From Sinomonas humi (lineage in GTDB: Bacteria > Actinomycetota > Actinomycetes > Actinomycetales > Micrococcaceae), in the NCBI RefSeq assembly GCF_000802235.1, contig NZ_JTDL01000152.1, positions 1 through 64,000 on the forward strand: DNA of 64,000 bases, in the 5' to 3' direction. The translations under genes and the position numbers were made by a program. Below the pieces are notes generated by a model. That model saw nothing but the letters and a program-made list of their open reading frames with translations. It was not told where the DNA came from and did not search any database. This document shows, one piece after another, positions 31,191 through 45,559 of this stretch. Each line of letters opens with the position of its first letter. Position 1 is the stretch's first letter.

Positions 31191-31709
31191 TCACGCGTTC
31201 ACAAGATCGGTCCCCAGATCTGCCCCGTCTCGCCGCACGAGGCCCTCCGGTGCCTCAGCCTCCGAAAACGGATCTCCGCCGTCGTCCGAATCGCTCCCCT
31301 CTGAACCGTCTGTGACTGCCACGACGCCCAAGGTTCGCCCCTCGGTCCCCGACATTTCGCCGGTCTCGGAGTCCACAACCCCGACTCCTTCGACGATCAC
31401 GCGAGCACCGCCCGTCTCCTGCCGCTGGCCGTCCTGAGGATTGCGCGCGAACTTGGCCGATCCCCAGAAGAGGTCGTGCCCGACCGATTCCGCTTCGACC
31501 TCCGCCGACTGGTAGACGCGGCCGTCCCTCTCCCACTGCTTGAGGCGAAGCTTGCCAACCACAATGACGCGGTTGCCCTTCTTGAGGCTTCCGCACATGT
31601 TGCTCGCCAACTGCCGGAAGCCGACTACCGTGAACCAGTTTGTGTGCCCGTCGACCCACGCACTTGCTTCACGGTCGTAGCGCCGATCGGTGACCGCAAG
31701 TCTGAAACT
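31191..31709 (-). pseudogene. ssb: C-terminal part of a split single-stranded-DNA-binding protein gene
   Basis: Reading minus from the junction at 31709 gives SFRLAVTDRRYDREASAWVD, then an intact OB-fold core (WFTVVGFRQLASNMCG, VGKLRLKQWERDGRVYQSAE) and an acidic C-terminal tail, 171 residues in total. The frame has no ATG/GTG near the junction and runs back to a TGA inside the inserted element. The missing first 30 residues lie 13.4 kb away at 45130-45225. Joined, the two parts make a 201-residue SSB. The TTG/ATG codons at 31610/31598 could only start a truncated fragment. Confidence 0.93.
31706..31709. other. attL junction of the integrated element
   Basis: Minus-strand AGTT is the only sequence shared with the other junction (45135-45138). 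To its left the ssb frame continues (TTC AGA CTT); to its right lies element DNA. A very short core is typical of large serine integrases. Confidence 0.8.
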
Positions 31710-31765
31710 CGAGACGATGTCACCCCCGCACGTTCAGCATTGGTAGTGCTTCAACCAAAGAGAAA

Positions 31766-31825: not shown

Positions 31826-32224
31826 GTGACAAATTCTACTAGCACCATCCCTGCAGGCACCCGCGTCTGTCACCGCACGTTCGGTCTCGGAAAGGTTCTC
31901 CCCGCGCCCACGAAGGGCCGAGGCGAGGCCCTGGTCGAGTTCGAGTCCGGCGCCGTGTCGATCGTGGCGGCGCAGGATTTCGTGGCCATCCCGCCCGAGG
32001 GCTTCAAGCCCGTTTTCGACGACGATGGCCTGGCCTATTACGACGGGCCCACAGTCATGGCCGGGGACGTGGTGATCACGCGGAACTGGCAGCCTGAGGA
32101 GGGCATGATCTTCTGGCTCTCGCCGAGCGACCGCAAGCGTTCCGATGACTATTTCACGACCGGCGAGATCCGCACTCTCATCGGCGCACTCCAGGACCTG
32201 CTCAACGAGACCGACAGAAAGTGA
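31826..32224 (+). CDS. Hypothetical element protein, 132 aa
   Basis: The GTG start follows AAGGAG nine bases upstream. The N-terminal half reads as a small beta-barrel (GTRVCHRTFGLGKVLPAP... then VEFESGAVSIVAAQDFVAI), reminiscent of CarD/SH3-like modules, though I do not assign it. The C-terminal half is acidic and amphipathic. First of three overlapping plus-strand genes at the attL end. Small genes beside att sites sometimes encode excision or directionality factors; that is only a possibility here. Confidence 0.65.
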   Translation: MTNSTSTIPAGTRVCHRTFGLGKVLPAPTKGRGEALVEFESGAVSIVAAQDFVAIPPEGFKPVFDDDGLAYYDGPTVMAGDVVITRNWQPEEGMIFWLSPSDRKRSDDYFTTGEIRTLIGALQDLLNETDRK

Positions 32225-32958: not shown

Positions 32959-35900
32959 TCATCGCCTGATCTGATGCCCGGCGCTCGGGAGTGCCCACGT
33001 GGCCCCGTAGCGGCCGAACTCGTCCCAGAGCTGCTTGATGACCTTCTGGTCGGGCATCCCGAAGTTGTCGTGGATGTCCACGTGCAGATGGAGTTCGGGC
33101 GCACCCCCGCCGAGGGCAGACCCGGCAGGCCCTGCACCCCGAGGCGAGATGACCCGCTCCGGCTGGCCGGTGTTGTTGATCACCCGGGTGATGCCGGGCT
33201 CCAGCCATCCACCCTCGTCGTACCCGACGTAGGGGCCGCCCTGCGCCATCGAGACGAGGCCGGGAACGCTGCTGATGTCCCCGTACCGCGACTTGATGTA
33301 GCCGATGCCCGCCACGATGTTCGCGACGGGATCGAATATGTTGTCCGGCAGTGCCTGCGAGCGGTACGCCTCGAACGTTGACCCGATGGTCTGCATGAGG
33401 CCACGGGACGGGTCGCCCATGGCGGCATTGGAATCCCAATTATTCGTGGCGTTCGGGTTGCCGCCCGACTCGTGCATGGCGATGGTTTCGAGCCCGTTGA
33501 GCCAGTTCGCACCAGAGACGCCCGCTGCCGCCATGGCCGCCTGTACCCAGCCTGCGAGGTCGCCCGAGACAGCACCGGGGGAGCCGACGTTGCCCGCGCC
33601 GCCCTTGGGGGCGTTCTGGTCCTTCGCGCCGAGGAACTTCAGCAGGTCGTCCCCGAGCGTGTGCACGCCCGAGTCCAGCAGCGAGCCGAAGCCGGTCTTG
33701 CCGAGGTTCGCATCCGCGAGGGACTCGATGCCCTGCACGATCGGAGTCGCCGCCATGCGCAGGCCGCCGAGCGCGGCATCCTTGAGCCCATTCAGCGCCC
33801 CGCCGATGGCAGAGCCGATGCTGCCGAGGATGTCCCCGACCACGCCGCCCCCGGCGAAGTGGTTGCCCGAGCTCCTGCCCGAGCCGCCGCCGTACATCGA
33901 GTTGATCGCGTCGATGCCCGCCGCGCCGCCGAGGGCCCTGACGGCCTGCGGAACGAGGATGCCCTCGCCGGGAGACAGCATCGCGTGCACGATGTCATTC
34001 CCCGGAGAGTAGCCGGGGACGGTGCCGCCCTTGGCGAAGGAGAGGCTGATCGGGTCGAGCTTGCCGAGGCCGACCATGCCCGCCACGTCGTTCCAGACCG
34101 GCATGATGCCCTTGTTGTAGACCTGGTCGATGACGAACTTGACCGGGGTCTTGGCCGAGTCCACGATGCCGTCCCAGACCTTCTTGATGCCCTGCCCGAA
34201 GAGGTCGAAGCCCTTGCCGACATCGCTGATCATGTTCTTGATCGGCGTGAACACGTTGTCGGAGAGCCAGTTCCACACCGTGGAGATCGCCGTCTGGATG
34301 GCGTCCCAGACCGGCTTGATCACGTTGTCGTGGAGCCAGTTCCACTCGATCCCGAGGCCCTTGATCTCCATGTGGATGAAGTTCATGACGTTCGAGACGA
34401 TCCAGTTCCATGCGGTCGAGATCGCATTCTGGATGCCCTGCCAGACGGGGACGATCACGTTCTGCCAGAACCACGTGAACGTGGACGCCACCTGCTTGAC
34501 GTACGCGATGATCGGGTTGATGACGTTCTGGAGGATCCAGTTCCAGACCGTCCGCATCACGTCCTGGATCCCGTTCCAGACGGGCACGAGGACGTTCTGC
34601 CACAGCCACGTGTACGTCTGGGCCACGAGCTTCACGTACGCGATGATCGGGTTGATGACGTTGGCGAGCAGGAAGGCCCACGCGATCTTCGCCACGTCCA
34701 CGATCCCGTCCCACACCGGCTTGAAGACGCTCTTCCAGAGCCAGTTGAACAGCGCAGACAGCATGTTCACCGCGAGCACGATCGGCGTCACGAGGACCGT
34801 GAAGATCACCGCGACCGCGACCTTGATGACCGTCACGATGCCGTCGAAGATCGGCTTCAGGAAGGTCACCACGGCCTTCCATGCGGTCACGAAGTCGTTG
34901 GCGACGACCTTGACGACCGCGACAGTGGTATTCCAGACCGAGGTGAACCATGCTGCCACCGGGTTCCAGACGGACATGAACCAGCCCACGAAGCCCTGCC
35001 AGACGCCGACGATCGCATTCACCGCTGGCTTTGTGAAGTTCACGATCGCGCCCCAGACCTGCTGCCAGTGCGTGACGAGGAGGAATATCGCCACCCCGAG
35101 GGCCACCACCGCGGCGATGATCAGGAAGATGGGTGCGCCCACGGATTCGAGCACGCCGAATGCCGTGGCCATGGCGCTGATCGCGAACGAGACCCCCACC
35201 ATTCCCGCCACGAGGATGCCCAGCCCGCCCGCCACGAGCATGATCGTCGCGGCCATCTGCTTGTTGTGCGTGATCCAGTCCGCGATCGGCCCGATGAACC
35301 CCGAGACCTTGTCCATGAGGGTGCCCAGCACCGGCAGGAGCGCGGTGCCGATGGCGATCTTCGCCGTCTCGAAGGCCTGCTTGGCCTCGTCCATCTTGGT
35401 GTTGAAGTTCCCCTGGATCTCGGTCCAGCCCTTCACGTTGCCCTGCGCGTCGGCTGTGGCGCCCGTGATGTCCTTGACCGCCTTCGAGGTGTTCCCCGCA
35501 TTCTCGCCCGCGATCATCAGGGCCACATTCAGGCCCGTCGCGTCACCCGTGGCCTTGGCCATGGCCTGCGTGTAGTTCTGCAGCACATCCTTGCCGCTCA
35601 TCTGCGCGTCGCCGATGCGGTGGGTCGCGCCGAGGAGGGTGGCGAAGGACTGGGCCTGCTTGGCCGAGACGGGATCGAGTGCGAGCGCGGCCTTGCTGTA
35701 CTCCTTCATCGTCATCGAGCCGTCGAAGAGGTGCTGGGCGAGCTGCTGCGCCGCCGGGGTCAGGGACGACATGGCGGTCTTCATCTGCAGGATCACCTTG
35801 TCGGTGCCCGCCGGCATCATCTTGGTGATGCGCTGGGAGATCTCCTCCAGCGTGCCCGAGAGCCCCTTGGACTTGATGTCGGAGGCCAGCTGGTTCGTGG

Positions 35901-37005
35901 TCATCCCGAGGAGGGCGAGCTGCTTGGCCTGCATCGCCGTGGGGTTCACCATGTGGCGGATCACGTCGGAGAGGTTCTGGGCGCTCTGCTGTGCCGACAT
36001 GCCGTGCATGGTCATGGAGGACATGTCGCCGAGGATGTCGTTCAGCGACACGTGCGCCGCCGAGGCCACCGGCAGGATCGCGGGCATGGCCGCGGCGAGG
36101 TCTTCGAACCTCATCTTGCCGTCAGCGGTCGCCTGCACGAGCTTCGAGGTCACGTCGGCGGCGGCCTGCGCGGGCTGGTGGTAGTCGAGGAGCGCCGAGG
36201 ACACGGCGTCGGCCACCGTCTCCAGGTCCGCGCCTTCGGCCTTGGCGCCCTCCTGTGCGGCCTTGACCACATTGAGGCCCTCGGCACCGTGGAAGCCCGC
36301 CGAGTTGATCTTGTAGAGGCCGTTCCCGAGGTCTTCCATGGTCGCGCCGGTATCCCGCGCGATCTGCATCGCCCCGGTCAGGTCGCTGCCGAGGTTGTTC
36401 ACGGACTCGCCCGCGGACGTGGAGAGCTTCGTGAAGTTCTGCTGCACGTCGGCCGCGGACTTCGCGGCGGACACCGCGAACATGCCCACGCCGACACCCA
36501 CCGCACCCGCGGCGACGCCGACGCCCTTGAGGATCCCGGACCACGCCTGACCCTTGGCCCCGGCCTCGCTCTGCGCGTCGGAGAGCTCCTTGTGCCGCTT
36601 CGCCGTCGTGTCCAGCGCCGCCTGGAGCTTGGCGAGGGCGGCCTCCTCCTCGCCCGTGGCCGTCTTCAGCGCGGTTGCAGCCTCGGCCGCGGCCTTCGCC
36701 TGCTCGTCGCCGGAGAGCTTCGCGGCGTCGGCCACCGCCTTCTGCGCGGCCTCCACCTTCGCGCCGGCGGTGACGATCTCGGCCTGAGCCCCGACCACCG
36801 CATCCTTCGCAGCCGCGTGCGCGCGACCGAGGGCCGCCACCTTGGCCTGCGCGGCGTCCATGTTCTGCCCGGACGCGCCGAGGGCGGTGCGCATCTTGTC
36901 CAGTGCGCCGGAGACCGAGCCGAGGGAGCCCTCGAAGTCCTTGAAGATCGCCGTGGCACGGTCGCGCGCCTCGATCTCGAACAGGATCATCTCGTTGCTG
37001 GTCAC
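32959..37005 (-). CDS. Phage tail tape measure protein with lytic transglycosylase domain
   Basis: 1348 residues, 30% of the element. An N-terminal coiled coil (residues ~1-160) is followed by a TP901-type tape measure core with QQNFTKLSTSAGES and TSMTMHG-like phrases, and a hydrophobic segment (~585-650). An array of ~47-residue aromatic repeats (VINPIIAYVK, WNWILQN, PVWNGIQD; ~755-945) and a C-terminal SLT transglycosylase domain (AMHESGGNPNATNNW, GLMQTI; ~1150-1250) complete it. GTG start overlaps the preceding stop by four bases. The protein sets tail length and helps DNA entry in siphophages. It is intact although no other tail gene is present. Confidence 0.93.
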   Translation of the reverse strand: MTSNEMILFEIEARDRATAIFKDFEGSLGSVSGALDKMRTALGASGQNMDAAQAKVAALGRAHAAAKDAVVGAQAEIVTAGAKVEAAQKAVADAAKLSGDEQAKAAAEAATALKTATGEEEAALAKLQAALDTTAKRHKELSDAQSEAGAKGQAWSGILKGVGVAAGAVGVGVGMFAVSAAKSAADVQQNFTKLSTSAGESVNNLGSDLTGAMQIARDTGATMEDLGNGLYKINSAGFHGAEGLNVVKAAQEGAKAEGADLETVADAVSSALLDYHQPAQAAADVTSKLVQATADGKMRFEDLAAAMPAILPVASAAHVSLNDILGDMSSMTMHGMSAQQSAQNLSDVIRHMVNPTAMQAKQLALLGMTTNQLASDIKSKGLSGTLEEISQRITKMMPAGTDKVILQMKTAMSSLTPAAQQLAQHLFDGSMTMKEYSKAALALDPVSAKQAQSFATLLGATHRIGDAQMSGKDVLQNYTQAMAKATGDATGLNVALMIAGENAGNTSKAVKDITGATADAQGNVKGWTEIQGNFNTKMDEAKQAFETAKIAIGTALLPVLGTLMDKVSGFIGPIADWITHNKQMAATIMLVAGGLGILVAGMVGVSFAISAMATAFGVLESVGAPIFLIIAAVVALGVAIFLLVTHWQQVWGAIVNFTKPAVNAIVGVWQGFVGWFMSVWNPVAAWFTSVWNTTVAVVKVVANDFVTAWKAVVTFLKPIFDGIVTVIKVAVAVIFTVLVTPIVLAVNMLSALFNWLWKSVFKPVWDGIVDVAKIAWAFLLANVINPIIAYVKLVAQTYTWLWQNVLVPVWNGIQDVMRTVWNWILQNVINPIIAYVKQVASTFTWFWQNVIVPVWQGIQNAISTAWNWIVSNVMNFIHMEIKGLGIEWNWLHDNVIKPVWDAIQTAISTVWNWLSDNVFTPIKNMISDVGKGFDLFGQGIKKVWDGIVDSAKTPVKFVIDQVYNKGIMPVWNDVAGMVGLGKLDPISLSFAKGGTVPGYSPGNDIVHAMLSPGEGILVPQAVRALGGAAGIDAINSMYGGGSGRSSGNHFAGGGVVGDILGSIGSAIGGALNGLKDAALGGLRMAATPIVQGIESLADANLGKTGFGSLLDSGVHTLGDDLLKFLGAKDQNAPKGGAGNVGSPGAVSGDLAGWVQAAMAAAGVSGANWLNGLETIAMHESGGNPNATNNWDSNAAMGDPSRGLMQTIGSTFEAYRSQALPDNIFDPVANIVAGIGYIKSRYGDISSVPGLVSMAQGGPYVGYDEGGWLEPGITRVINNTGQPERVISPRGAGPAGSALGGGAPELHLHVDIHDNFGMPDQKVIKQLWDEFGRYGATWALPSAGHQIRR

Positions 37006-37274
37006 ACGCCTCCGACAAGCTCGTCGGCGAGGTCGAGGAACCGCTTCTGGTGCCGCAGGGCCTTCGCGAGGAGCAGGACTGCCTCACGCTCGCTCCGGCA
37101 CCCTGCAGCGCGGCCATAGAGGCCCGCGGCCTTCTCCGCAGCGCGGGCCTGACGCCGAAGGAGCCGGCGCTCGCGGGCAGAGACCCCTGGCCGAGATGCC
37201 TCCTCCGCAGCTCGGTGCGAGAGGTGCGCCATTTCGCGGCAGAGACCTACGTAGTCAAATGGTTGTTCGGTCAC
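37002..37274 (-). CDS. Helical basic protein directly upstream of the tape measure gene, 90 aa
   Basis: GTG start five bases after AGGAG; the stop overlaps the tape measure start (GTGTGACC). All-helical, Arg/Ala-rich, with one Cys pair. In tailed phages this position belongs to the tail assembly chaperones, but neither a slippery heptamer nor similarity to those was seen. A chaperone-like role is therefore speculative. Confidence 0.65.
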   Translation of the reverse strand: MTEQPFDYVGLCREMAHLSHRAAEEASRPGVSARERRLLRRQARAAEKAAGLYGRAAGCRSEREAVLLLAKALRHQKRFLDLADELVGGV

Positions 37275-37431: not shown

Positions 37432-37671
37432 TCACAGCGTCAGGTCCATGGCAGCGGCACGGGCTGCCGCGCGCCTCTTGGCGATCGAGTGCGGCATGAC
37501 GGCCTCGGCGTCGGCCTCCAGGAGGTCATCGAACCGCTTCTCCAGCGACGCGCGGAAGGCTCGGGACTCGGCGAGCTCGGCTTGGAGCTCGTCGCGGAGC
37601 CTCTCGACCTCCTCGCGGGTGGCAAGCGAGGCGAGCTGGCCCCGTAGCGCCTTCGCGATCTCGGCGTTCAC
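37432..37671 (-). CDS. Coiled-coil element protein, 79 aa
   Basis: GTG start overlapping the upstream stop by four bases (GTGA). Residues 5-60 form a continuous heptad-rich helix (ATREEVERLRDELQAELAES); the C-terminus is basic. It could be a scaffold or oligomerisation protein. No family was recognised. Confidence 0.65.
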   Translation of the reverse strand: MNAEIAKALRGQLASLATREEVERLRDELQAELAESRAFRASLEKRFDDLLEADAEAVMPHSIAKRRAAARAAAMDLTL

Positions 37672-38003
37672 CGTGCGCCCCTCTCCCGCTCGGCCAGTGC
37701 CACCTTCGCCGCGTCATGGAGCGCGATCGCCCGCGTCGGGCCGACCTTCTCCATGAGCAAGATGTACCGTTCGGCCGATTGCACCGCGCCAAACGCGAGC
37801 CGGGCGAGATCCTGCTCCTCCGGCGTCAGGGGGCGTGACTTCTCGACTCGGCCGGGGCACTTCTCGCCCGTCGTCCGGTGCGGGATGACGGTCTTGCCGC
37901 AACCCTCGCACGGCTGGGGGACGTAGTGGCTGCTCGGGCCGGACGCCGAGGACTTGGCGCCGGCCGGCCGGGGTGACTTGGCTTGATCGGGTATGTAGAC
38001 CAC
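37668..38003 (-). CDS. Zinc-finger-like element protein, 111 aa
   Basis: The N-terminal 35 residues are Pro/Ser-rich and disordered. CEGCGKTVIPHRTTGEKCPG (residues ~33-52) looks like a small C3H or CCHC zinc site. The rest is helical, ending in GERGAR-like basic residues. Start GTG beside AAGGAG; the leader ACCCACTAAGGAGT is nearly repeated before the 90-aa gene (37275-37289), suggesting duplicated expression signals. Confidence 0.65.
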   Translation of the reverse strand: MVYIPDQAKSPRPAGAKSSASGPSSHYVPQPCEGCGKTVIPHRTTGEKCPGRVEKSRPLTPEEQDLARLAFGAVQSAERYILLMEKVGPTRAIALHDAAKVALAERERGAR

Positions 38004-38018
38004 AGACTCCTTAGTGGG

Positions 38019-38900
38019 TTAGCGGGCGTTGATGCCCGCGGCGATGAACTGCTGCGCGTTTCCGTACGCGACACGAGCCTCCCGCTCGGCGGCCTGCTCG
38101 ATCTGGAGCTCGCGGAGCCGGACCCCGGCCTGCCTGAACTGCTCCTGCGCCTCTGCCAGGCTCAGCTTCGGCTCGGGCCTGGGCTTCAGGGCGTCCTCGT
38201 AGGCACGCTCGGCCCTCCCTGGGTCCGCTGCGGCCGTGCGCGCGACGCTGTCGGCCAGCAGGGAGAGGTGCTCCGCGAAGCCGGGCGCATCATTCCCGTC
38301 AAGGCCCGACTGACGCAGAAGCGCCTCTACGGTATTCCGGAAGAGCCAGTCAACAAGCGTGTGGGGCACCTTGCCCGCGTGCTCGGCGGCGTGCTCGGCG
38401 ACAGCGGCCTCGGCGTCTCGCACCGCGCCCTCGGCGGGTGGGATCAGCGACTCCGCGAGCTCGGCACGCCGGGCACGCTTGGCCTCGGCCTTGACCTCCT
38501 GCCGGGCGTCTACCCGGGCCAGCGCCGAGAGCAGCGTCTCGGCGTCCACGACTCCGGCGACGTCGGCCTCGTCGGCCCGAGCATCCCGGGCAGCTTCGAT
38601 CTCGGCCCGCTGCCGGGTCCGGTCCTGCGCCGCCGCGTCCAGCTCCGCGAGATCCCGGTCCAGAGCGTCACGCTCGTCCGTGAGGACCTTCAGCGCTGCC
38701 CGGGCGTCCCGGAGGACCTCCGCGAGGTCTTCGCCCTTCAGGATCTCGGCTGGGCCGACGGTGAGCGAGAAGTAATCGCCCTCCGGCAGCTCGACGTCCT
38801 CCGCCTCGGGCTCCTCGGTCTCATCCACGACGGGAGCGGGGATCTCCTTCCGGGGCTTCCTGACGGGCAGCTCAGGCCGGCTCAGGCCGAGACGTTCCAT
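38019..38900 (-). CDS. Long coiled-coil element protein, 293 aa
   Basis: Acidic N-terminus (VVDETEEPEAEDVELPEGD), then Ala/Arg/Glu-rich heptads through most of residues 60-200 and a helical C-terminus. Composition resembles phage scaffolding or tail-associated proteins, but no signature allows a call. The ATG at 38900 lies inside the 3' end of the ribbon-helix-helix gene (29-base overlap). Part of the same minus-strand operon as the tape measure gene. Confidence 0.65.
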   Translation of the reverse strand: MERLGLSRPELPVRKPRKEIPAPVVDETEEPEAEDVELPEGDYFSLTVGPAEILKGEDLAEVLRDARAALKVLTDERDALDRDLAELDAAAQDRTRQRAEIEAARDARADEADVAGVVDAETLLSALARVDARQEVKAEAKRARRAELAESLIPPAEGAVRDAEAAVAEHAAEHAGKVPHTLVDWLFRNTVEALLRQSGLDGNDAPGFAEHLSLLADSVARTAAADPGRAERAYEDALKPRPEPKLSLAEAQEQFRQAGVRLRELQIEQAAEREARVAYGNAQQFIAAGINAR

Positions 38901-39039
38901 TGAGCACCTCCTCCTCGGCCTCAGCGGCCGCGTATGTGCGGATGGCCCTCGCGGCGACGACGCGCAGCGAGCGCTCCTCTTCCCGGGCGACGGACTTGAG
39001 CAGCTCGTATGAGGCGGGATCGAGATTCAGATGCACCAC
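38872..39039 (-). CDS. Ribbon-helix-helix (Arc/CopG-like) small regulator, 55 aa
   Basis: Short gene read directly from the sequence. The GTG start follows AAGGAGG by eight bases, then a hydrophobic beta strand (VHLNLDPASYELLKSVARE) and two helices (EERSLRVVAARAIRTYAAA), the pattern of RHH DNA-binding proteins. The stop overlaps the next gene. Likely an autoregulator or copy-control/antitoxin-type repressor of the element. No toxin partner was recognised. Confidence 0.7.
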   Translation of the reverse strand: MVHLNLDPASYELLKSVAREEERSLRVVAARAIRTYAAAEAEEEVLNGTSRPEPA

Positions 39040-39042
39040 GGT

Positions 39043-39330
39043 TCAGCCCTCCTTCCGGGCATGGGAAGAGCGCCGCGACTGCTCACGGCGCTCGGTGTCT
39101 ATGTTGTGTGCGGCACGATTCCCGGTCGGATCCTGCCACTCGATCTGGCGGCGGGGGGAAGAGATCGGACCGGCGGCCTCGGTCTCGTGGCGGTACTGCT
39201 TCGCCAACCGGTCGGCTCGGGAACTGCTGATGGTTTCGCCGCGCTCGGCGGCCTCGGCGAGGATCGCCTCGCGGATTGCTTGCGTGCTCAGACGCGGATC
39301 GATGCGGGATTCGTTTCCCACATACTCCAA
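39043..39330 (-). CDS. Charged helical element protein, 95 aa
   Basis: Starts at TTG (39330) with GGGAG upstream, or at a GTG three codons later. Residues 10-50 form Arg/Glu-rich helices (STQAIREAILAEAAERGETI); the tail is basic and disordered. Ends four bases before the RHH gene, whose ribosome-binding site it contains. It may head the operon leading to the tape measure gene. Function unknown. Confidence 0.55.
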   Translation of the reverse strand: MEYVGNESRIDPRLSTQAIREAILAEAAERGETISSSRADRLAKQYRHETEAAGPISSPRRQIEWQDPTGNRAAHNIDTERREQSRRSSHARKEG

Positions 39331-39398
39331 TCTTCGGGATCTCCCGGCTCGGAGTCGGGATTACTCCCCAGTATGCCAATCGGTGCCTAAATGTCCAC

Positions 39399-40025
39399 AT
39401 GACGCGCCGAATTGTGGACGAATGGAATAAAGGCCCCTCTCGCGGCCGCAAATTGACCGACCCTCACAAGTACCCATTCGGGGCGTTGAAAACGGCTGAG
39501 CGGGGCGCACGGCGGGGCTGGGGGTTAATTCGGGGGTACGGCTCGGGTCAGGCGCGCGCGTTACGCGATATTTCTGGGAGGTCCGCGCTCGGGGTTGCCA
39601 TACGCGAGGGGCAGGAGCGCGGGGAGATAAGGACAAAGGGAGAAGGGGGTGGGAGCAGCCCTAGTAGCGTCGCTACTAGGAAGATTTCCCCCGCCGAGTT
39701 CTTCTCTAGCAACCCGGAAGCCAACCAGATCTATTCCATAGCCGACGTTACTGATGGCCAGTTCGAGGCCGCCCTCGCCCGCGAGGAGGGGAACCCGGAC
39801 CCGCGACTCGGATTGGGGGTGCGCCACGGGACCGGGCTCCGGCAAGCGTACGGCTCGCACCGCCGTCCACGAAAGCCCCCGGGAGGCTGGGGCTCGGCTG
39901 ACCCGCCCGCGCGTAGACACGTGCGATGGGTAGTCGGCTCTGGGGCTTTCACCTCAGTGGCCGACCTACCCCCCTACCCTTCAGCAGCGCGCCGCTTGCC
40001 GCCGTCGGCCCAGGCTTCGAGGTAG
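39399..40025 (+). pseudogene. Possible decayed regulator frame in the resolvase/operon gap
   Basis: The 640 bases between the resolvase stop and the 95-aa gene hold no convincing gene. A plus-strand frame here encodes IYSIADVTDGQFEAALAREE, which resembles the middle of actinobacterial element regulators (…TDxQFExALAEAREEGN…), but the continuation expected there is absent, there is no ribosome-binding site and rare codons are common. It is either a decayed gene or coincidence in a regulatory region. The resolvase gene overlaps its end. Confidence 0.25.
39660..39680. promoter_or_regulatory. 21-bp near-perfect palindrome in the large non-coding gap
   Basis: CCTAGTAGCG-T-CGCTACTAGG has 10-base arms around one central base. 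It lies in the largest gene-poor gap of the element, upstream of the minus-strand operon. It could be the operator of the RHH protein, part of an origin, or a packaging/nicking site. Confidence 0.6.
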
Positions 40026-40549
40026 CCGTCAGCCTTGCGGGGCTTGCGGTCCTTGGCCCCTGCCTTGCGGCCGCCCACGGGCAGGCCAGCCTTGCGGCGG
40101 CGCTCGATGCCGGCCTTGGTCCGCTCGCTGCGGCGCTTGGACTCCTGCTGTGCCATCCAGCCGGTAATGCCGACGAGAAGTTCCCTCATCGCCGGATCGC
40201 TCGTGTGCAGCCACGGCTCCTGGTGCGACCACACCGCACAGCCGTGCTCAGTGAGCAGGCGCAGTGTGGCCAAGGTGTCTTCCATGCCGCGCCTGCTGAG
40301 GCGGTCCAGCGACCACACGAGCACCACGTCGTAATGGCCGAGGCGGGCGCCGTTGAGGAGCTCGGCACGCTGCCTGTCGAAGTCCTGGCCCTTGCCGTTC
40401 GTGCTGGTGTAGGCACTGTCCTCGATGGCATGCGCTGCCACGACGTCGAGCCCGCGACGCCCGGCCCAGTCGTGCAGCACCTGCAGTTGGTTCTCGGTGG
40501 TCTGCTCTGCCGTACTGACGCGCGCCCACACAGCCGCTTTGGTAGTCAT
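39974..40549 (-). CDS. Small serine recombinase (resolvase/invertase family)
   Basis: 191 residues. The catalytic Ser is in VWARVSTAEQTTENQ (residue 12), with the conserved LVWSLDRLSRRGMEDTL region and the E-helix. The C-terminal DNA-binding part (RRSERTKAGIERRRKAGLPV) is present, but the usual Hin-type helix-turn-helix end is short and basic. Probably resolves multimers of the excised circular element or acts in regulation. ATG at 40549. A res-like repeat lies immediately upstream. Confidence 0.88.
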   Translation of the reverse strand: MTTKAAVWARVSTAEQTTENQLQVLHDWAGRRGLDVVAAHAIEDSAYTSTNGKGQDFDRQRAELLNGARLGHYDVVLVWSLDRLSRRGMEDTLATLRLLTEHGCAVWSHQEPWLHTSDPAMRELLVGITGWMAQQESKRRSERTKAGIERRRKAGLPVGGRKAGAKDRKPRKADGYLEAWADGGKRRAAEG

Positions 40550-40823: not shown

Positions 40824-41036
40824 TCAGGAGAGCAGCTCGTCGAGCATGTCTGCGAGCCGTTCGGCGTCCTCGCGGCGGAGCACTATCCTCGGCCAGTTGC
40901 GGGCGCAGACCGCAATGCCGTCCTCGGGCAGGCCATTCGGCTTGGAGATCTTGGCCCGCCGGACGACGAGGTCCTGGCCGTCCCGCACGACGCGGTCCCA
41001 GAAGCCGACGCGGCTGATGAAGGTCTCGGACATCAT
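40824..41036 (-). CDS. Small element protein, 70 aa
   Basis: MMSETFISRVGFWDRVVRDG... with a C-terminal amphipathic helix (LRREDAERLADMLDELL). The ATG overlaps the stop of the 26-aa gene (AATGATG). Last gene of the integrase-Rep operon before a terminator. Unknown function. Confidence 0.65.
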   Translation of the reverse strand: MMSETFISRVGFWDRVVRDGQDLVVRRAKISKPNGLPEDGIAVCARNWPRIVLRREDAERLADMLDELLS

Positions 41037-41113
41037 TCGTTCTCCAGTTCCGTCGTGGGCAATTCCTCTTCCACGTCGCCGTTGGCGTCCGTGGTGACCG
41101 TCGGTGCTGTCAT
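41033..41113 (-). CDS. 26-residue coupled microprotein
   Basis: MTAPTVTTDANGDVEEELPT plus LENE. The ATG overlaps the upstream stop (ATGA) and its own stop overlaps the next start (TGATG). The tight coupling on both sides is the only evidence that it is translated; the acidic, unstructured sequence gives no function. Confidence 0.5.
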   Translation of the reverse strand: MTAPTVTTDANGDVEEELPTTELENE

Positions 41114-41286
41114 CGTGCCTTCTCTCTCGATTCGTACATCGCGAGCTGGGCCTTGGCTGCCCTGAGCTCGATCTGGAGTCGGGTGTTCCTGTCGTGGAGC
41201 TGCTGGCAGAGCCACTGCAGCTCTCGCTTGGCGTAGGGCTTCAGCCACGGCTGCGGCTTGTAGTCCTGGGGCACTGCATCGGTCAC
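41110..41286 (-). CDS. Small helical protein coupled to the RepA-like ATPase, 58 aa
   Basis: GTG start at 41286 overlaps the ATPase stop (GTGA); GGAGG is three bases upstream. Sequence: Trp/Tyr-containing start (DYKPQPWLKPYAKRELQWLC) then a Glu/Arg coiled coil. Stop overlaps the next ATG. Small proteins of this type follow Rep-like ATPases in several actinobacterial elements. Unknown role, possibly a replication accessory. Confidence 0.6.
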   Translation of the reverse strand: MTDAVPQDYKPQPWLKPYAKRELQWLCQQLHDRNTRLQIELRAAKAQLAMYESREKAR

Positions 41287-42788
41287 ATTCCTCCAGTTGG
41301 TTCATCAGTTGGGTCACGTCTCCCTCGGGCATGAACCGACTGAGCCGACTGAGCCGACTGGGGCTCAGTCAGTCCAGTTGGCTCAGTTGGTTCAGTCAGA
41401 CCATCTCCCCTAGGCACTTGAGCCGACTGGTGAGCCGACTGGCCGGGGAAGTACCAGAACGTCCTCCGAGGGAAGCCGCTGGACCGGTCATCGAGCCGCA
41501 GCTTCCCCTTGGCGCGCTTGATCGCGGACTCGCTGTGGCCAGCCTTCCTGCCCTCGGTCTTGATGGTCGCGCTGTCGCAGGAGCCGCCGCGGCTGGCAAG
41601 GAAGTCTTCGAGCCATCCGGAGGCCTCGTGGACCGCGCCGCGGTCTTCGCCGCCGTCCTGCTGGGCGCGGCGCATCGCGTCGGCGATGCTGCCGTCGTGC
41701 TCGCCGTGCCACTCGACGCGGCCGGTCCACGCGGGCCCTTCGTCGGTGGGCACGGCGTGGGACTCGACGGTGAAGGCGAGCGTGGGGAGGTTGCTGCGCC
41801 CGAGGTTGTTCTTGGGAGTGCCGAAGAGCCGGAGCCTGTCGGTGTCGTCGTCGGGGTCCGGGACGACGGTGTGGACCGAGCGCGCGACGGCCGTGAACGC
41901 CTTGGAGCCCATCACGAGCTGCAGCGGGTCGCTGGTGCCCGACTTGTTGTGGTGGATCAGTCCGAGCACGGCCATCCCGGTCCGGCCGGCGACCGAGACG
42001 AGCGGTTCGAGCGCCTGCCGCACCTCGGAGTCCCGGTGCGTGTCCAGGTCCCCGAGACGGGAGATGATCGGGTCGAGGATCAGGAGCGAGGCGCCGGTCT
42101 GCCGTGCGGCCTGCTCCGTGCGCTGGTTGTCCCTCGGCAGGGAGAGCCCGACGTGGATCTCGTCCGCGTTGAGCACCTCGACGCGGAATACCCTGTCCCC
42201 GTCCGCCCCGGCCGCGATGAGCCGAGGGACGATCGTGTGCTCCCAGCTGTCCTCGGTGGCGCACACGAGGACGCTGCGCGGCTTCCCGTAGAACTCGCCC
42301 GGGAGCTCGCCCCGGGTGACCTGAGCGGCGAGCCAGTACGCGAGGGTGGACTTGCCGAGGCCTTCCCGGCCGGCGAGCAGGGCGAGGGTGCCAAGCGCGA
42401 TCCGGCCGTCCCACATCCACTTCACGCGGCGCGGCTTGATCGAAGACGCGGGAGTCAGGACGAGGCTGCGCTCGTGCTCCCCGGACCTCGCGTAAGCCTC
42501 CTCGATGCCCAGGAGATCGGCGTCGCTCGGGCCGTCTGGGATCCCTGCCGGCTCGCGGCCCATCGCGCTCTCGAACGAGACCGACGCCTCTACCTGTCGC
42601 TTCGCGGCTTCGAGGATCTCGTGCTGCCGTGCGGCAGCATTGTCGTCGTAGTCGCGGAGGGTCGGCTCTGAATTGTCGGAGAGGTTCGCTAGACTGGTCG
42701 TACCTGATTCGTCGCCGTGCTGGGCGTTTGAGTGGCCTCGGGGTTCGCCGCCCGGGGCCCTCTCTTTTGTCTGGGCACTATCGGCCAC
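41283..42788 (-). CDS. RepA-like hexameric AAA ATPase/helicase
   Basis: 501 residues. Walker A GREGLGKSTLAYW (residues ~139-151), Walker B LLILDPIIS (~232) and VLGLIHHNKSG follow the RepA/AAA_25 helicase pattern found in plasmids and phage-like elements. A C-terminal winged-helix-like segment (SATIKTEGRKAGHSESAIKR) comes next, then a repetitive Gln/Ser/Pro tail encoded by the iteron-like array. It probably drives replication of the excised element. ATG at 42788 overlaps the upstream 69-aa gene by 11 bases. Confidence 0.82.
   Translation of the reverse strand: MADSAQTKERAPGGEPRGHSNAQHGDESGTTSLANLSDNSEPTLRDYDDNAAARQHEILEAAKRQVEASVSFESAMGREPAGIPDGPSDADLLGIEEAYARSGEHERSLVLTPASSIKPRRVKWMWDGRIALGTLALLAGREGLGKSTLAYWLAAQVTRGELPGEFYGKPRSVLVCATEDSWEHTIVPRLIAAGADGDRVFRVEVLNADEIHVGLSLPRDNQRTEQAARQTGASLLILDPIISRLGDLDTHRDSEVRQALEPLVSVAGRTGMAVLGLIHHNKSGTSDPLQLVMGSKAFTAVARSVHTVVPDPDDDTDRLRLFGTPKNNLGRSNLPTLAFTVESHAVPTDEGPAWTGRVEWHGEHDGSIADAMRRAQQDGGEDRGAVHEASGWLEDFLASRGGSCDSATIKTEGRKAGHSESAIKRAKGKLRLDDRSSGFPRRTFWYFPGQSAHQSAQVPRGDGLTEPTEPTGLTEPQSAQSAQSVHARGRRDPTDEPTGGM
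41294..41441. repeat. Iteron-like array of GARCCRACTG decamers
   Basis: Five direct copies (41333, 41342, 41351, 41420, 41432) of GARCCGACTG and four inverted copies (41294, 41306, 41375, 41384) of CAGTTGGYTC-type, spaced by 9 or 12 bases, fill the 3' end of the RepA-like gene. The array encodes a low-complexity tail (TEPTEPTGL, QSAQSAQS), but the presence of both orientations suggests a DNA-level role, such as an iteron replication origin. Confidence 0.6.
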
Positions 42789-43135: not shown

Positions 43136-43735
43136 CTAGGTGAGCAAATGCAGTTGGACGCCCTTCCGCGTGTCGCGGCCGCCACCTTCGATCAGCGCAT
43201 TCACTGCGGCGCGATAGAGGGAAAGGACGGATACATTGCGGAGGGCGACCGATGTGGCATTAGAGCCCTCTGGGATATTGCACAGGCAGGACACTTTCAC
43301 CGGCTCCAAGTGCGTGCCTGGGCCCGTGAGCCGGTACTCGCCATCCTTCTTCCGGCTTCGATCTACGTAGATGAGTTCGACTGCGCCGTCGCGGACGGCG
43401 AACGCGACGGACCAGTCCTTTTCGGTGGTGCCGCATTTGATCGGGATGCGGTTCGTCCGACCAAAGGCCGCTACGGTGTGCCGCGACACGAATTGGATCC
43501 ATCTATCCTCACGGGACATCCTGTTCAATTCCCTGAGGTCATCCGCGAGCTTCCCCCACCTGTCGACCGCCTCGAACAGTTGTGGTCCGGGAGCGAGCGA
43601 CCCGCCGTCGCCGCGGTCCCATTTCCACTTCGTCGCTGGTCCCCGAGGTTCACGTGCCATCTTCTCGAGATCTTCGAGGTCAGACATTCCCTTCGCCAGC
43701 TTGGCCCGGAAGTCGTCCCCCACGCTGCCGCTCAT
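43136..43735 (-). CDS. Unknown protein coupled to the integrase, 199 aa
   Basis: ATG overlaps the integrase stop (ATGA) and has AAGGAG upstream. N-terminal helix (DDFRAKLAKGMSDLEDLEKM), then a mixed alpha/beta body with WIQFVSRHTVAAFG and VSCLCNIPEG. No family was recognised. Tight coupling to a large serine integrase makes it one candidate for a recombination directionality factor, but there is no sequence proof. Confidence 0.65.
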   Translation of the reverse strand: MSGSVGDDFRAKLAKGMSDLEDLEKMAREPRGPATKWKWDRGDGGSLAPGPQLFEAVDRWGKLADDLRELNRMSREDRWIQFVSRHTVAAFGRTNRIPIKCGTTEKDWSVAFAVRDGAVELIYVDRSRKKDGEYRLTGPGTHLEPVKVSCLCNIPEGSNATSVALRNVSVLSLYRAAVNALIEGGGRDTRKGVQLHLLT

Positions 43736-45117
43736 GACGTCTCCTTCCAGTCGAACCGCACCTGCTCGGGCGAGAACCTGACTCCCCGCCCTGCCGGGAG
43801 CATCGTGATTGCCGCCAGCTGGCGAAGGATCTTCCTCTGGTCCTCCAATGGCGTCGCCGCCCACGCCGCCGCAGCATCCTCAGTCCCGACGAACGCCGAC
43901 AGTGGGTCGGTCACCGTCGCCCGATCGAGCTCACCCTCGATCTCGGCCAGGCGCTTGCGTATGCGCTGGAGGTCATCGCGCACATCGGCTTCAGTCACGA
44001 GCTCCTCACTGAGGAGCCGCACGAGCGACGCCCGTTTTTCCCTCAGGCGGACGGCCTCGCCGCGGAGCTCGGCCACGCGGTCGCTACGCACTAGCCGAGA
44101 CGCGATGTCCGGCTGGCTGAGACGCCTCACGATCACAGCCTCGACGGCTTCCTCCACGAGCCCGGCCGTTCGCTGCGTGCAGCCCTTCCGGCAGCGGTAG
44201 GCGCGCGCGTCGTTCGCGGTGCCCTTGCCTGGCCCCTCGTACATCGGGCCGCCGCACTTCCCGCAGAGGAGGATGCCAGACAGGAGGTGCTTTGCACTGC
44301 TGACCACGGGCGATGTCTTTCGGCGGGGATCCTTGAGCAGGCGGACGATCTCGTCGTGCTGCTCCTCTGTCAGGATGGGCGGCCACTCCCCCGTGGCGAC
44401 ATCCTCGCCCAGGTAGAAACGCCGTCCGGGGTGCATGGGGTTCAGGAGCACACGTCGGACCGGAGTCGGCGACCATCGCCCCGACGAGTTCTTGGCGGAT
44501 GTCCTGAGGCCTCGCGCATTCCAGTCGCGCGCTACATCGGAGATCGAGCCGCCGGACAGGACGGCCTGCACGCCATCCTTGATGGCCTGAGCCTCGGCCT
44601 CGACCACGAACACCTTCCCGGATTCGTCGCGGCCGTATCCGAATGGCCGGCGGACCCAGAATGCCCTGCCTGCCTCGGCGCGCTGACGGTTGGCAGTCTT
44701 CTGCCGCTCGGCTTTGTGGGCGACTTCCATCGCGGCGATGGAAGTCAAGATCTGGCTGACTGCGATGCCGGAGGGGTCGGCCAGGTTCAAAGACGTGCCG
44801 TGCACGCTCGCCACCTCAAGCGCGTGAGGCTTCCCGGCGTCGATCACTCGCTGGAGGTCCCTCATGGACCGCGAGAGCCTGTCTAGGTGCCATACGGCAA
44901 GCTGGGTCACCTCACCAGCGGCAATGGCCCTGATGAGCTCCTCGAAGCCCTCGCGGATCTTCCCCGAGGTGGCAGACCGATCGTTGTCCCTGAATACTCG
45001 AGGCTTGCCCCAGCCCTTCGCCTCGGCGAGCTTGGTGCAGTTCTTGAGTTGACGCTCCACGGCTACGGCATCGCCGGTCCGGTCCTTCGATTGCCTCACA
45101 TAGATTGCTGAGCCCAT
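43732..45117 (-). CDS. int: Large serine recombinase (integrase)
   Basis: 461 residues. The N-terminal catalytic domain has Ser10 in YVRQSKDRTG and the WHLDRLSRSMRDLQ region. A recombinase domain (FGYGRDESGKVF...) follows, then a zinc ribbon with CGKCGG and CRKGC (~285-312) and a coiled coil (~340-395). It catalyses integration at a short core and needs a separate factor for excision. The ATG lies 18 bases from attR and 12 bases after the stop of the truncated ssb, with no ribosome-binding site, so it may be expressed from the host ssb promoter. Confidence 0.95.
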   Translation of the reverse strand: MGSAIYVRQSKDRTGDAVAVERQLKNCTKLAEAKGWGKPRVFRDNDRSATSGKIREGFEELIRAIAAGEVTQLAVWHLDRLSRSMRDLQRVIDAGKPHALEVASVHGTSLNLADPSGIAVSQILTSIAAMEVAHKAERQKTANRQRAEAGRAFWVRRPFGYGRDESGKVFVVEAEAQAIKDGVQAVLSGGSISDVARDWNARGLRTSAKNSSGRWSPTPVRRVLLNPMHPGRRFYLGEDVATGEWPPILTEEQHDEIVRLLKDPRRKTSPVVSSAKHLLSGILLCGKCGGPMYEGPGKGTANDARAYRCRKGCTQRTAGLVEEAVEAVIVRRLSQPDIASRLVRSDRVAELRGEAVRLREKRASLVRLLSEELVTEADVRDDLQRIRKRLAEIEGELDRATVTDPLSAFVGTEDAAAAWAATPLEDQRKILRQLAAITMLPAGRGVRFSPEQVRFDWKETS

Positions 45118-45129
45118 GTGGAAACAGTA

Positions 45130-45225
45130 CTACCAACTATTGACAAACGCACCGCCGTTTGTCGTGTTGGTCCTCGGGTCCGTCGCAACGAATCCCCGAA
45201 CCGTGATCATGTCGCTCATCGCCAT
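45130..45225 (-). pseudogene. ssb: N-terminal part of the split ssb gene
   Basis: Starts at ATG (45225) seven bases after AAGGAG and reads MAMSDMITVRGFVATDPRTN followed by TTNGGAFVNS, the first strands of an SSB OB fold. After attR it picks up TGG TAG from the element and stops at 31 residues. The remaining 171 residues are at 31191-31709. Excision at the AGTT core would restore one continuous frame. Confidence 0.93.
45135..45138. other. attR junction of the integrated element
   Basis: Minus-strand AGTT shared with 31706-31709. Host ssb sequence lies to the right and element DNA to the left. Confidence 0.8.
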
Positions 45226-45434: not shown

Positions 45435-45486
45435 CAGGCATGCCCGAGATGTGGAACCAGCCACATCCCCGAGACAGCCACAAACG

Positions 45487-45559
45487 CGCCCCAGGAGGGA
45501 GTCGAACCCCCGACCAGAGGATTAGAAGGCCCCTGCTCTATCCGCTGAGCTACTGGGGC
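45487..45559 (-). tRNA. tRNA-Arg (anticodon TCT)
   Basis: The acceptor GCCCCAG pairs with CTGGGGC, the loop CTTCTAA reads TCT, and the T arm GGGGGTTCGACTCCC is canonical. The anticodon stem (GGGGC/TCCTC) has one G-T pair and one mismatch next to the loop. 73 bases, discriminator G, no CCA. It is not the integration target, which is ssb. Confidence 0.93.

Follow-up and report, generated by a model that had tools for sequence, protein, structure and literature searches.

Tape measure proteins (TMPs) encoded by phage satellites are known from the PLEs of Vibrio cholerae, for which the sections of a 2026 report dealing with tape measures describe a TMP that is present in PLE11 virions and replaces that of the helper, giving chimeric tails (PMC12987554). 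When tmp is deleted, transduction falls by about 99.9% for PLE11, 96% for PLE1, and 99% for PLE4. The PLE11 TMP is 20% identical to that of ICP1, with a difference of 95 amino acids (aa) in the protein and of 10 nm in the tail; the same report shows putative tmp genes in elements resembling PLEs and in some of the cf-PICIs that it sampled (PMC12987554). Here, we describe an integrated element of ∼13.43 kb in Sinomonas humi (genome G000), located within a 64,000-nt stretch of contig NZ_JTDL01000152.1 (the window, to which all coordinates refer unless another genome or locus is named), that encodes a TMP of 1348 aa. On balance, we interpret this element as an integrated phage satellite that would use the heads and tails of a helper while installing its own TMP.

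Like the V. cholerae PLEs, which have alternative TMP/TAC/BhuB genes, this is an integrated, satellite-type element encoding a full TMP. It differs from the PLEs as described (PMC12987554) in belonging to another bacterial phylum, probably in its tail type (that of ICP1 is contractile), in having candidate helpers only, and in that no chaperone was recognized in it; moreover, the TMPs of the element and its relatives are 64–91% identical to the closest phage TMPs found and within 2% of their length in three pairs. Like the cf-PICIs, which need a helper tail and some of which have a putative tmp, it is integrated and carries a subset of virion genes (PMC12987554, PMC10690885), but it lacks the capsid, portal, connector, and terminase genes that cf-PICIs are described as encoding (PMC10690885). 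Mycobacterial candidate PICIs and the PICI-like phiRv1 and phiRv2 are also integrated elements of Actinobacteria, but the virion gene reported for those candidates encodes a major capsid protein rather than a TMP (PMC10654092). The PICMIs of Vibrionaceae resemble the element in having no capsid-remodeling gene and, by implication, no terS homolog, and have provided a model in which concatemer formation allows a small satellite to fill a full head; unlike the element, their packaging looks headful and the relevant sections of their description mention no TMP (PMC10803314). An intact prophage differs in having the full virion and lysis gene set. The words "tape measure" do not occur in a paper on Streptomyces satellites (PMC10690885). 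TMP-carrying satellites are therefore already known as a kind of element from the Vibrio PLEs, whereas no actinobacterial case was found among the papers listed by searches of the open-licence literature (subscription papers and preprints lie outside this search). The element would extend satellite tape measures from the PLEs to an actinobacterial system without visible relation to them.

The tape measure gene and its element

The TMP gene occupies positions 32959..37005 on the minus strand, with a GTG start at 37005, and its reading frame comprises 1348 codons without an internal stop. Residues 213–405 (35791–36369) match PhageMin_Tail (Pfam, E 3.8e-22) and residues 1166–1246 (about 33268–33510) the SLT domain (Pfam, E 2.1e-12), with a hydrophobic segment recognized by eye around residues 590–700. 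The protein matches 32 PHROGs families, mostly tape measure families (best E 1.1e-75), one of the 32, phrog_971, being labeled endolysin. Its start overlaps the stop of a gene for a 90-aa protein (37002..37274, minus strand) predicted to form a three-helix bundle (mean pLDDT 94.6 from a single sequence).

The element interrupts an ssb paralog, the C-terminal part of which lies at 31191..31720 and the N-terminal part at 45154..45225 (both minus strand). The same gene is uninterrupted in 5 of the 15 genomes of the genus (G009, G006, G001, G007, and G010); nine others matched at 38–45% only, probably through another ssb gene, and were left out, G000 being the fifteenth. Both junctions of the element read GGTG, at 31721–31724 on the C-terminal ssb side and at 45150–45153 on the N-terminal side (both minus strand), which sets its length at ∼13.43 kb; G009 reads GGGG at this site. 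A tRNA-Arg gene at 45486–45559 (minus strand) lies near the ssb junction and is not the attachment site.

Besides this defined attachment site, the element has a gene for a large serine integrase of 461 aa (43732..45117, minus strand; Pfam Resolvase, Recombinase, and Zn_ribbon_recom; phrog_95, E 3.1e-94) and carries a predicted replication gene encoding an AAA_25/RepA-like ATPase of 501 aa (41283..42788, minus strand; PF13481, E 1.2e-27; phrog_10729 DNA polymerase/primase, E 3.8e-50). Genes were called with our own codon-score script, trained on ten genes of the window, which returned 14 genes for the element; the script performs poorly on lower-GC genomes (e.g., G067 and G024), where "prophage" denotes a reading of open reading frames (ORFs). 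A PHROGs scan of 16 sequences (the 14 called genes, an uncalled 116-aa ORF, and one alternative start), at E≤0.1 for ten and E≤0.01 for six, gave no match to families of terminase, portal, capsid, tube, baseplate, or lysis proteins other than those matched by the TMP itself, which is thus the only recognized virion gene among all 14. A first-pass annotation of the window, made from the sequence without database searches, had given the correct coordinates of an intact TMP gene filling 30% of an element that was otherwise devoid of virion genes and inserted at ssb, and had called the gene tightly coupled to its small neighbors; the borders, the scan, and the overlap described above bear this out. 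Its further statement, that a single intact frame would not survive random decay, is reasoned and not measured, and relatives of the element provide a better test.

Related elements and a phage lineage as candidate helper

Homologs of the TMP were sought in 148 relatives at E≤1e-20, their surroundings being read from gene calls and not from hidden Markov models. They occur at 14 places in 11 of these genomes (G000 included), of which three are small elements, ten (nine loci) have prophage-like surroundings with other virion genes, and one (G121) is an unrelated SLT protein outside a prophage. The three small elements are that of the window and two in genome G002, G002a (about 1885.8–1900.8 kb, TMP at 1895830–1899015) and G002b (about 1986.3–2001.7 kb, TMP at 1993851–1997381). 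All three TMPs are open, with no stop or frameshift; broken frames in close relatives, and full-length prophages of which the element is plainly a deletion derivative, had been named in the first-pass annotation as observations that would speak against a satellite.

G002a encodes a tyrosine integrase (Pfam), a resolvase, a TerS-like protein, a ribbon-helix-helix (RHH)-like protein, a coiled-coil-type protein, a head-maturation protease, and a TMP of 1061 aa. Its coiled-coil-type protein is 33% identical to the 293-aa protein of the window element, a protein found in 3 of 395 genomes of the family (G000, G002, and G014), all of one genus, and for which an alignment had no match in viral contigs. 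G014 contains a sister of G002a without a TMP, in which the expected position is occupied by an Eco57I-type methylase and a BsuBI/PstI-type endonuclease (PF07669, PF06616). The proteases of G002a and of the G014 element match the head-maturation family phrog_80 (E 1e-7 and 3e-5, respectively), the top PHROG of the former being phrog_21715 (unknown function, E 1.5e-16). Their TerS-like proteins are 67% identical to each other and align (hhalign probability 97.2%) with a protein beside TerL in the viral contig G713, which itself matches a TerS family at E 0.006; the TerS-like alignment had no match in viral contigs, nor the TerS-like protein in phage records. G002b encodes a tyrosine integrase (by eye; 26% identical to that of G002a), an ATPase (by eye), TerL (PF03237, E 6.6e-23), and a TMP of 1176 aa adjoined by a transposase-like gene. 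The layout recurs in elements with different integrases at different sites. The family PF10145 alone finds matches in only 2 of the 15 genus genomes and misses G002a.

Some further genes of G002a are worth recording. A TIR-domain protein (PF13676; L016 13369–14211) inside the element is perhaps anti-phage cargo. A small RMF-like protein after the TMP (PF04957, E 0.005, below the cut-off; L017 2063–2293) matches the N-terminus of a 739–767-aa phage protein beside portal (L038 6171; L037 3784), and the G014 element has a shorter copy of it.

When IMG/VR was scanned with the protease, G712 (61.4 kb) and G713 (50.7 kb) were returned, both contigs containing portal, protease, and major capsid protein genes by reading and, in G713, TerL (PHROGs). 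Found without the use of the TMP, they hold TMPs closer to that of the window than any earlier match, the alignments with G712/G713 giving 58% identity over residues 715–1348; 66% over 903–1348 plus 39% over 543–869. A second scan with an alignment of the TMP C-terminus found seven loci, G712 and G713 among them, the best being G1099 (58.6 kb), with a TMP of 1345 aa that is 68% identical to that of the window over 1330 aligned positions, that is, over the full length. The idea that the window TMP is a mosaic, based on its good match to G713 in the C-terminal half only, was dropped in light of this full-length homolog.

G1099 has a complete structural module by reading and a partial serine integrase. 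Just upstream of its TerS gene is a partly called resolvase that is 69% identical over 151 aa to the 191-aa serine resolvase/invertase of the window element (39974..40549, minus strand), and its TerS ORF is 37–42% identical to those of G002a and G014. The N-terminus of a 641-aa G1099 protein matches the 216- and 225-aa element proteases at 73–75%, and short stretches close to its C-terminus match as well (34% identity across 50 aa, E 0.006; 54% across 37 aa, E 5e-7), leaving the middle unmatched. The order resolvase, noncoding block, TMP is common to the window element and G1099. The window integrase, by contrast, is 25% identical to that of G1099 in its C-terminal part only, and neither the ATPase nor the RHH-like/coiled-coil pair has a match in G1099 at E≤0.01. 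The elements therefore share parts and gene order with this phage lineage but carry other integrases. Tblastx matches around the resolvase were noise from linked weak matches and were discarded.

Outside this lineage, close relatives of the TMP are scarce. The C-terminal alignment matched 1 of 396 genomes in a sample of the phylum, namely that of the window (strict limit 1e-60), and peptide patterns from the single protein gave one distant match in genome contigs (Streptomyces swartbergensis, 30%) and none in viral contigs. Matches were found in 2270 of 50,697 phage records, none covering 80% of the query; the best 25 of the 2270 are 23–38% identical, and 12 further records have a best place at 60–80%, a value stated without the length of the match. 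The element protease has distant matches in 12 phage records and 3 plasmid records.

Each element TMP keeps the length of its closest phage relative: 1348 aa in the window against 1345 in G1099, 1061 in G002a against 1080 in G712 (1130 in G713), and 1176 in G002b against 1180 in G002c, a prophage of genome G002 with a TMP 91% identical to that of G002b. This speaks against the change in tail length that had been proposed initially; the altered DNA-entry specificity proposed alongside it may still apply. Between the window and G1099 TMPs, differences fall 338/240/604 on the three codon positions (pN/pS 0.40), and between G002b and G002c dN/dS is 0.37 overall and 0.23 outside residues 600–780. 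Comparison of elements only (G002a with G014) gives pN/pS of 0.53 for the protease, 0.47 for the TerS-like protein, and 0.51 for the resolvase; the coiled-coil-type protein, with 0.84–0.86 between elements, is fast-evolving. Residues ∼600–780, at the hydrophobic segment, form the most divergent stretch in two of three pairs (window/G1099 and G002b/G002c). We do not claim this as a satellite-specific swap, as the phage pair G712/G713 dips at a comparable place.

A noncoding block (core 39905..39935, minus strand) lies directly downstream of the window resolvase. In G002a, the G014 element, G712, and G713, the same block lies upstream of the TerS gene, and we regard it as a candidate packaging site. 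Sensitive blastn detects it between G002a and G713 (E 3e-6) and G712 (E 4e-4), and the local scores of the window copy against G712 and G713 were reached by none of 300 shuffles (z 6.9 and 8.6). A pattern written from five copies, that of the window included, occurs once in the window, with none expected in shuffles, and matches 3 of 2.9 million viral contigs: G712 and G713, which were used to write it, and L110, a close relative of G712 that was not used and in which the block again lies upstream of TerS. It also matches 14 of 112 loci, all of them copies of known places or L110. A recognizable but diverged version is present at the same place in G1099, and the G713 contig ends within the block, as would fit a cos end. 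A plus-strand open frame of 249 codons (39276–40025) that crosses the block was not picked by the codon score and is probably an antisense chance. A separate 74-bp block, 85% identical between element G002b (G002 1993185–1993258, L018) and prophage G002c (1498322–1498395, L067) and located beside terminase genes, was first considered for a role in packaging, but its TTGACA motif and hairpin look more promoter-like.

Satellite, remnant, or another role

Our interpretation of the element as a helper-dependent satellite rests on the recurrence of small elements, the coiled-coil-type family marker, the TerS-like, protease, and TerL genes of the relatives, the homologous phage lineage, the shared block, the open TMPs, and the PLE precedent. 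Related elements, phage lineage, and candidate packaging site thereby lend support to an early suggestion that the element is a satellite replacing the TMP of its helper. Under this interpretation, infection by, or induction of, a phage of the G1099/G712/G713 lineage would be followed by excision and replication of the element. The helper terminase would recognize the shared block and package the element, either in multimeric form or inside a remodeled head; at 13.43 kb per copy, four copies add up to ∼54 kb, inside the size range of the phage contigs (50–61 kb), which is arithmetic and not evidence. Capsid, tube, and tail tip would be supplied by the helper, and the element TMP, made together with the coupled 90-aa protein, would take the place of the helper TMP during tail assembly. 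We infer every step of this cycle, from excision to TMP installation, from the presence and relationships of the parts, which are observed.

The gain would probably be independence from the TMP of the helper rather than a different tail length, given that the length of the phage relatives is kept. It could consist of escape from TMP-directed exclusion or from an assembly inhibitor, of preferential use for the element's own particles, or of passage into the next host through its wall and membrane. Exchange of TMPs without a change in length, if it takes place, must bring its advantage through DNA entry, through escape from exclusion, or through control of assembly, and the candidate helpers and packaging site make the question of why a satellite has its own TMP testable. 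A bolder generalization, which we offer as speculation, is that actinobacterial "tape-measure satellites" form a class that contributes a TMP, keeps the tail geometry, and swaps the part determining entry, so that the particle passes walls, membranes, or exclusion barriers that stop the helper.

Several observations weigh against a satellite. Neither the host genome nor the family sample yielded a helper: a helper-type major capsid protein is present in 0 of 375 family genomes and the element protease in 0 of 347 order genomes, both samples being without a positive control. The TerS-like proteins of G002a and G014 themselves match no terminase family; no window protein matches TerS, and the protease alignment has no match in G000, which would make this element fully dependent on the terminase of its helper. 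The sister element of G014 carries no TMP. No TMP chaperone was recognized, and fold searches with the neighboring 90-aa protein gave no significant match (best E 0.70 in PDB and 0.55 in a viral library). For the block, the regions compared were picked after a blastn in which the matches of the window copy were weak (E 0.003 with G712 and 0.022 with G713); its scores against G002a and G014 were reached by 3 and 6 of 300 shuffles, pairs with the G1099 block by 1 to 44 (window 3, G712 44), and the shuffles preserve dinucleotides only approximately. The window matches the pattern by construction, and the right (other) end of the G713 contig lacks similarity to the left part of the block. Finally, the pairwise selection values obtained with phage TMPs, window versus G1099 included, contain the phages' own evolution.

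The main rival explanation, which we regard as distinctly less probable though not negligible, is that the element is a remnant that arose by deletion from a temperate phage of the G1099 type, losing the head and most tail genes and gaining others, with a TMP too young to have decayed. The shared order of resolvase, block, and TMP fits such an origin and is, in part, what the first-pass annotation had named as speaking against a satellite; the origin is also fitted by the protease of the sister elements, which equals the phage protein minus its middle; the restriction-modification pair at the TMP place in G014 indicates that the TMP can be lost, and the selection values, being pairwise, do not single out the branch of the element itself. 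Against this, the integrase (25% identical over part of its length), the ATPase, and the coiled-coil and RHH-like genes do not come from G1099, and the layout recurs with other integrases and at other sites. Two elements that differ in integrase and site both retain the shortened protease (65% aa identity, pN/pS 0.53), suggesting that the reduced layout is maintained rather than freshly decayed. All three element TMPs are open, and the frames of the TMP, resolvase, and integrase are unbroken in the window element.

It is rather improbable that the TMP is a weapon or decoy, made during helper infection mainly to disturb helper tail assembly and so protect the host population rather than to form satellite particles, either as a dominant negative or by titrating the chaperone and tube of the helper. 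Satellite-borne defenses targeting tail assembly have been described, namely Tai (PMC11364771) and Rta (PMC12987554), but Rta as reported has only 80 aa (PMC12987554), and a 1348-aa TMP with an SLT domain and phage-like length exceeds the needs of a decoy. The shared packaging-type block, furthermore, points to transfer.

Serine integrases and RepA-like ATPases occur in nonphage integrative elements too, and the Pfam match confirms the SLT domain, but a role of the protein outside virions, in wall remodeling or in entry of a conjugative or plasmid-like integrative element, is very improbable, given that the whole protein and not the SLT domain alone is collinear with a phage TMP, that the phage-type block is present, and that no conjugation or FtsK-type family was matched among the scanned element proteins (Pfam, PHROGs).

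Other genes and other small elements

Reading along the minus strand, the element comprises the serine integrase, a 199-aa protein, the RepA-like ATPase, 54- and 70-aa proteins, the resolvase, the noncoding block, a 92-aa protein, the RHH-like and 293-aa coiled-coil-type proteins, 111-, 79-, and 90-aa proteins, and the TMP, past which a plus-strand gene for a 132-aa protein is the last. No function is assigned to the 199-aa protein (43136..43735; codon-score call, PHROGs scan) or to the 79-aa protein (37432..37671), which matches only phrog_6719 (unknown function, E 0.0035). The 54-aa protein (41110..41274) and the C-terminal half of the 70-aa protein (40824..41036) each resemble a gene of G002b, and the 92-aa protein (39043..39321) matched no family. 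The 55-aa RHH-like protein (38872..39039), so named by eye and without a Pfam match, is 38% identical to that of the G014 element. The 293-aa protein (38019..38900) is probably a coiled coil (by eye), has no Pfam family, and has homologs only in the G002 and G014 elements. The 111-aa protein (37668..38003) has a cysteine motif recognized by eye and belongs to no family. The N-terminal ∼50 aa of the 132-aa protein (31826..32224, plus strand) share 48% identity with the product of the gene at the end of the G014 element, with no Pfam or PHROG family.

A second small element in G014 (contig C16, 231.3–237.4 kb; L066+L032) lies within a comM-like gene and encodes a serine integrase and an ATPase. 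It also encodes a protein of 508 aa that shares 30% identity, across 222 aa, with the major capsid protein of G713, and so makes a capsid-carrying neighbor for the sister element that has no TMP. This suggests that the virion module can differ from one small element to the next within a genus, be it a capsid (second G014 element), a protease with a TerS-like protein, or a TMP, which matters for reading small "prophage remnants" in genome annotation. The ATPase of the window element is matched in seven other genomes, and small integrase and ATPase elements were read in six of them (G110 left out): G023, G036, G045, G128, G108, and G018 (L059, L060, L061, L062, L063, and L065). Like the window element, these six combine an integrase and a replication ATPase with a virion gene, which in their case, from ORF reading only, encodes a 270–295-aa protein resembling by eye an HK97-type major capsid protein instead of a TMP.

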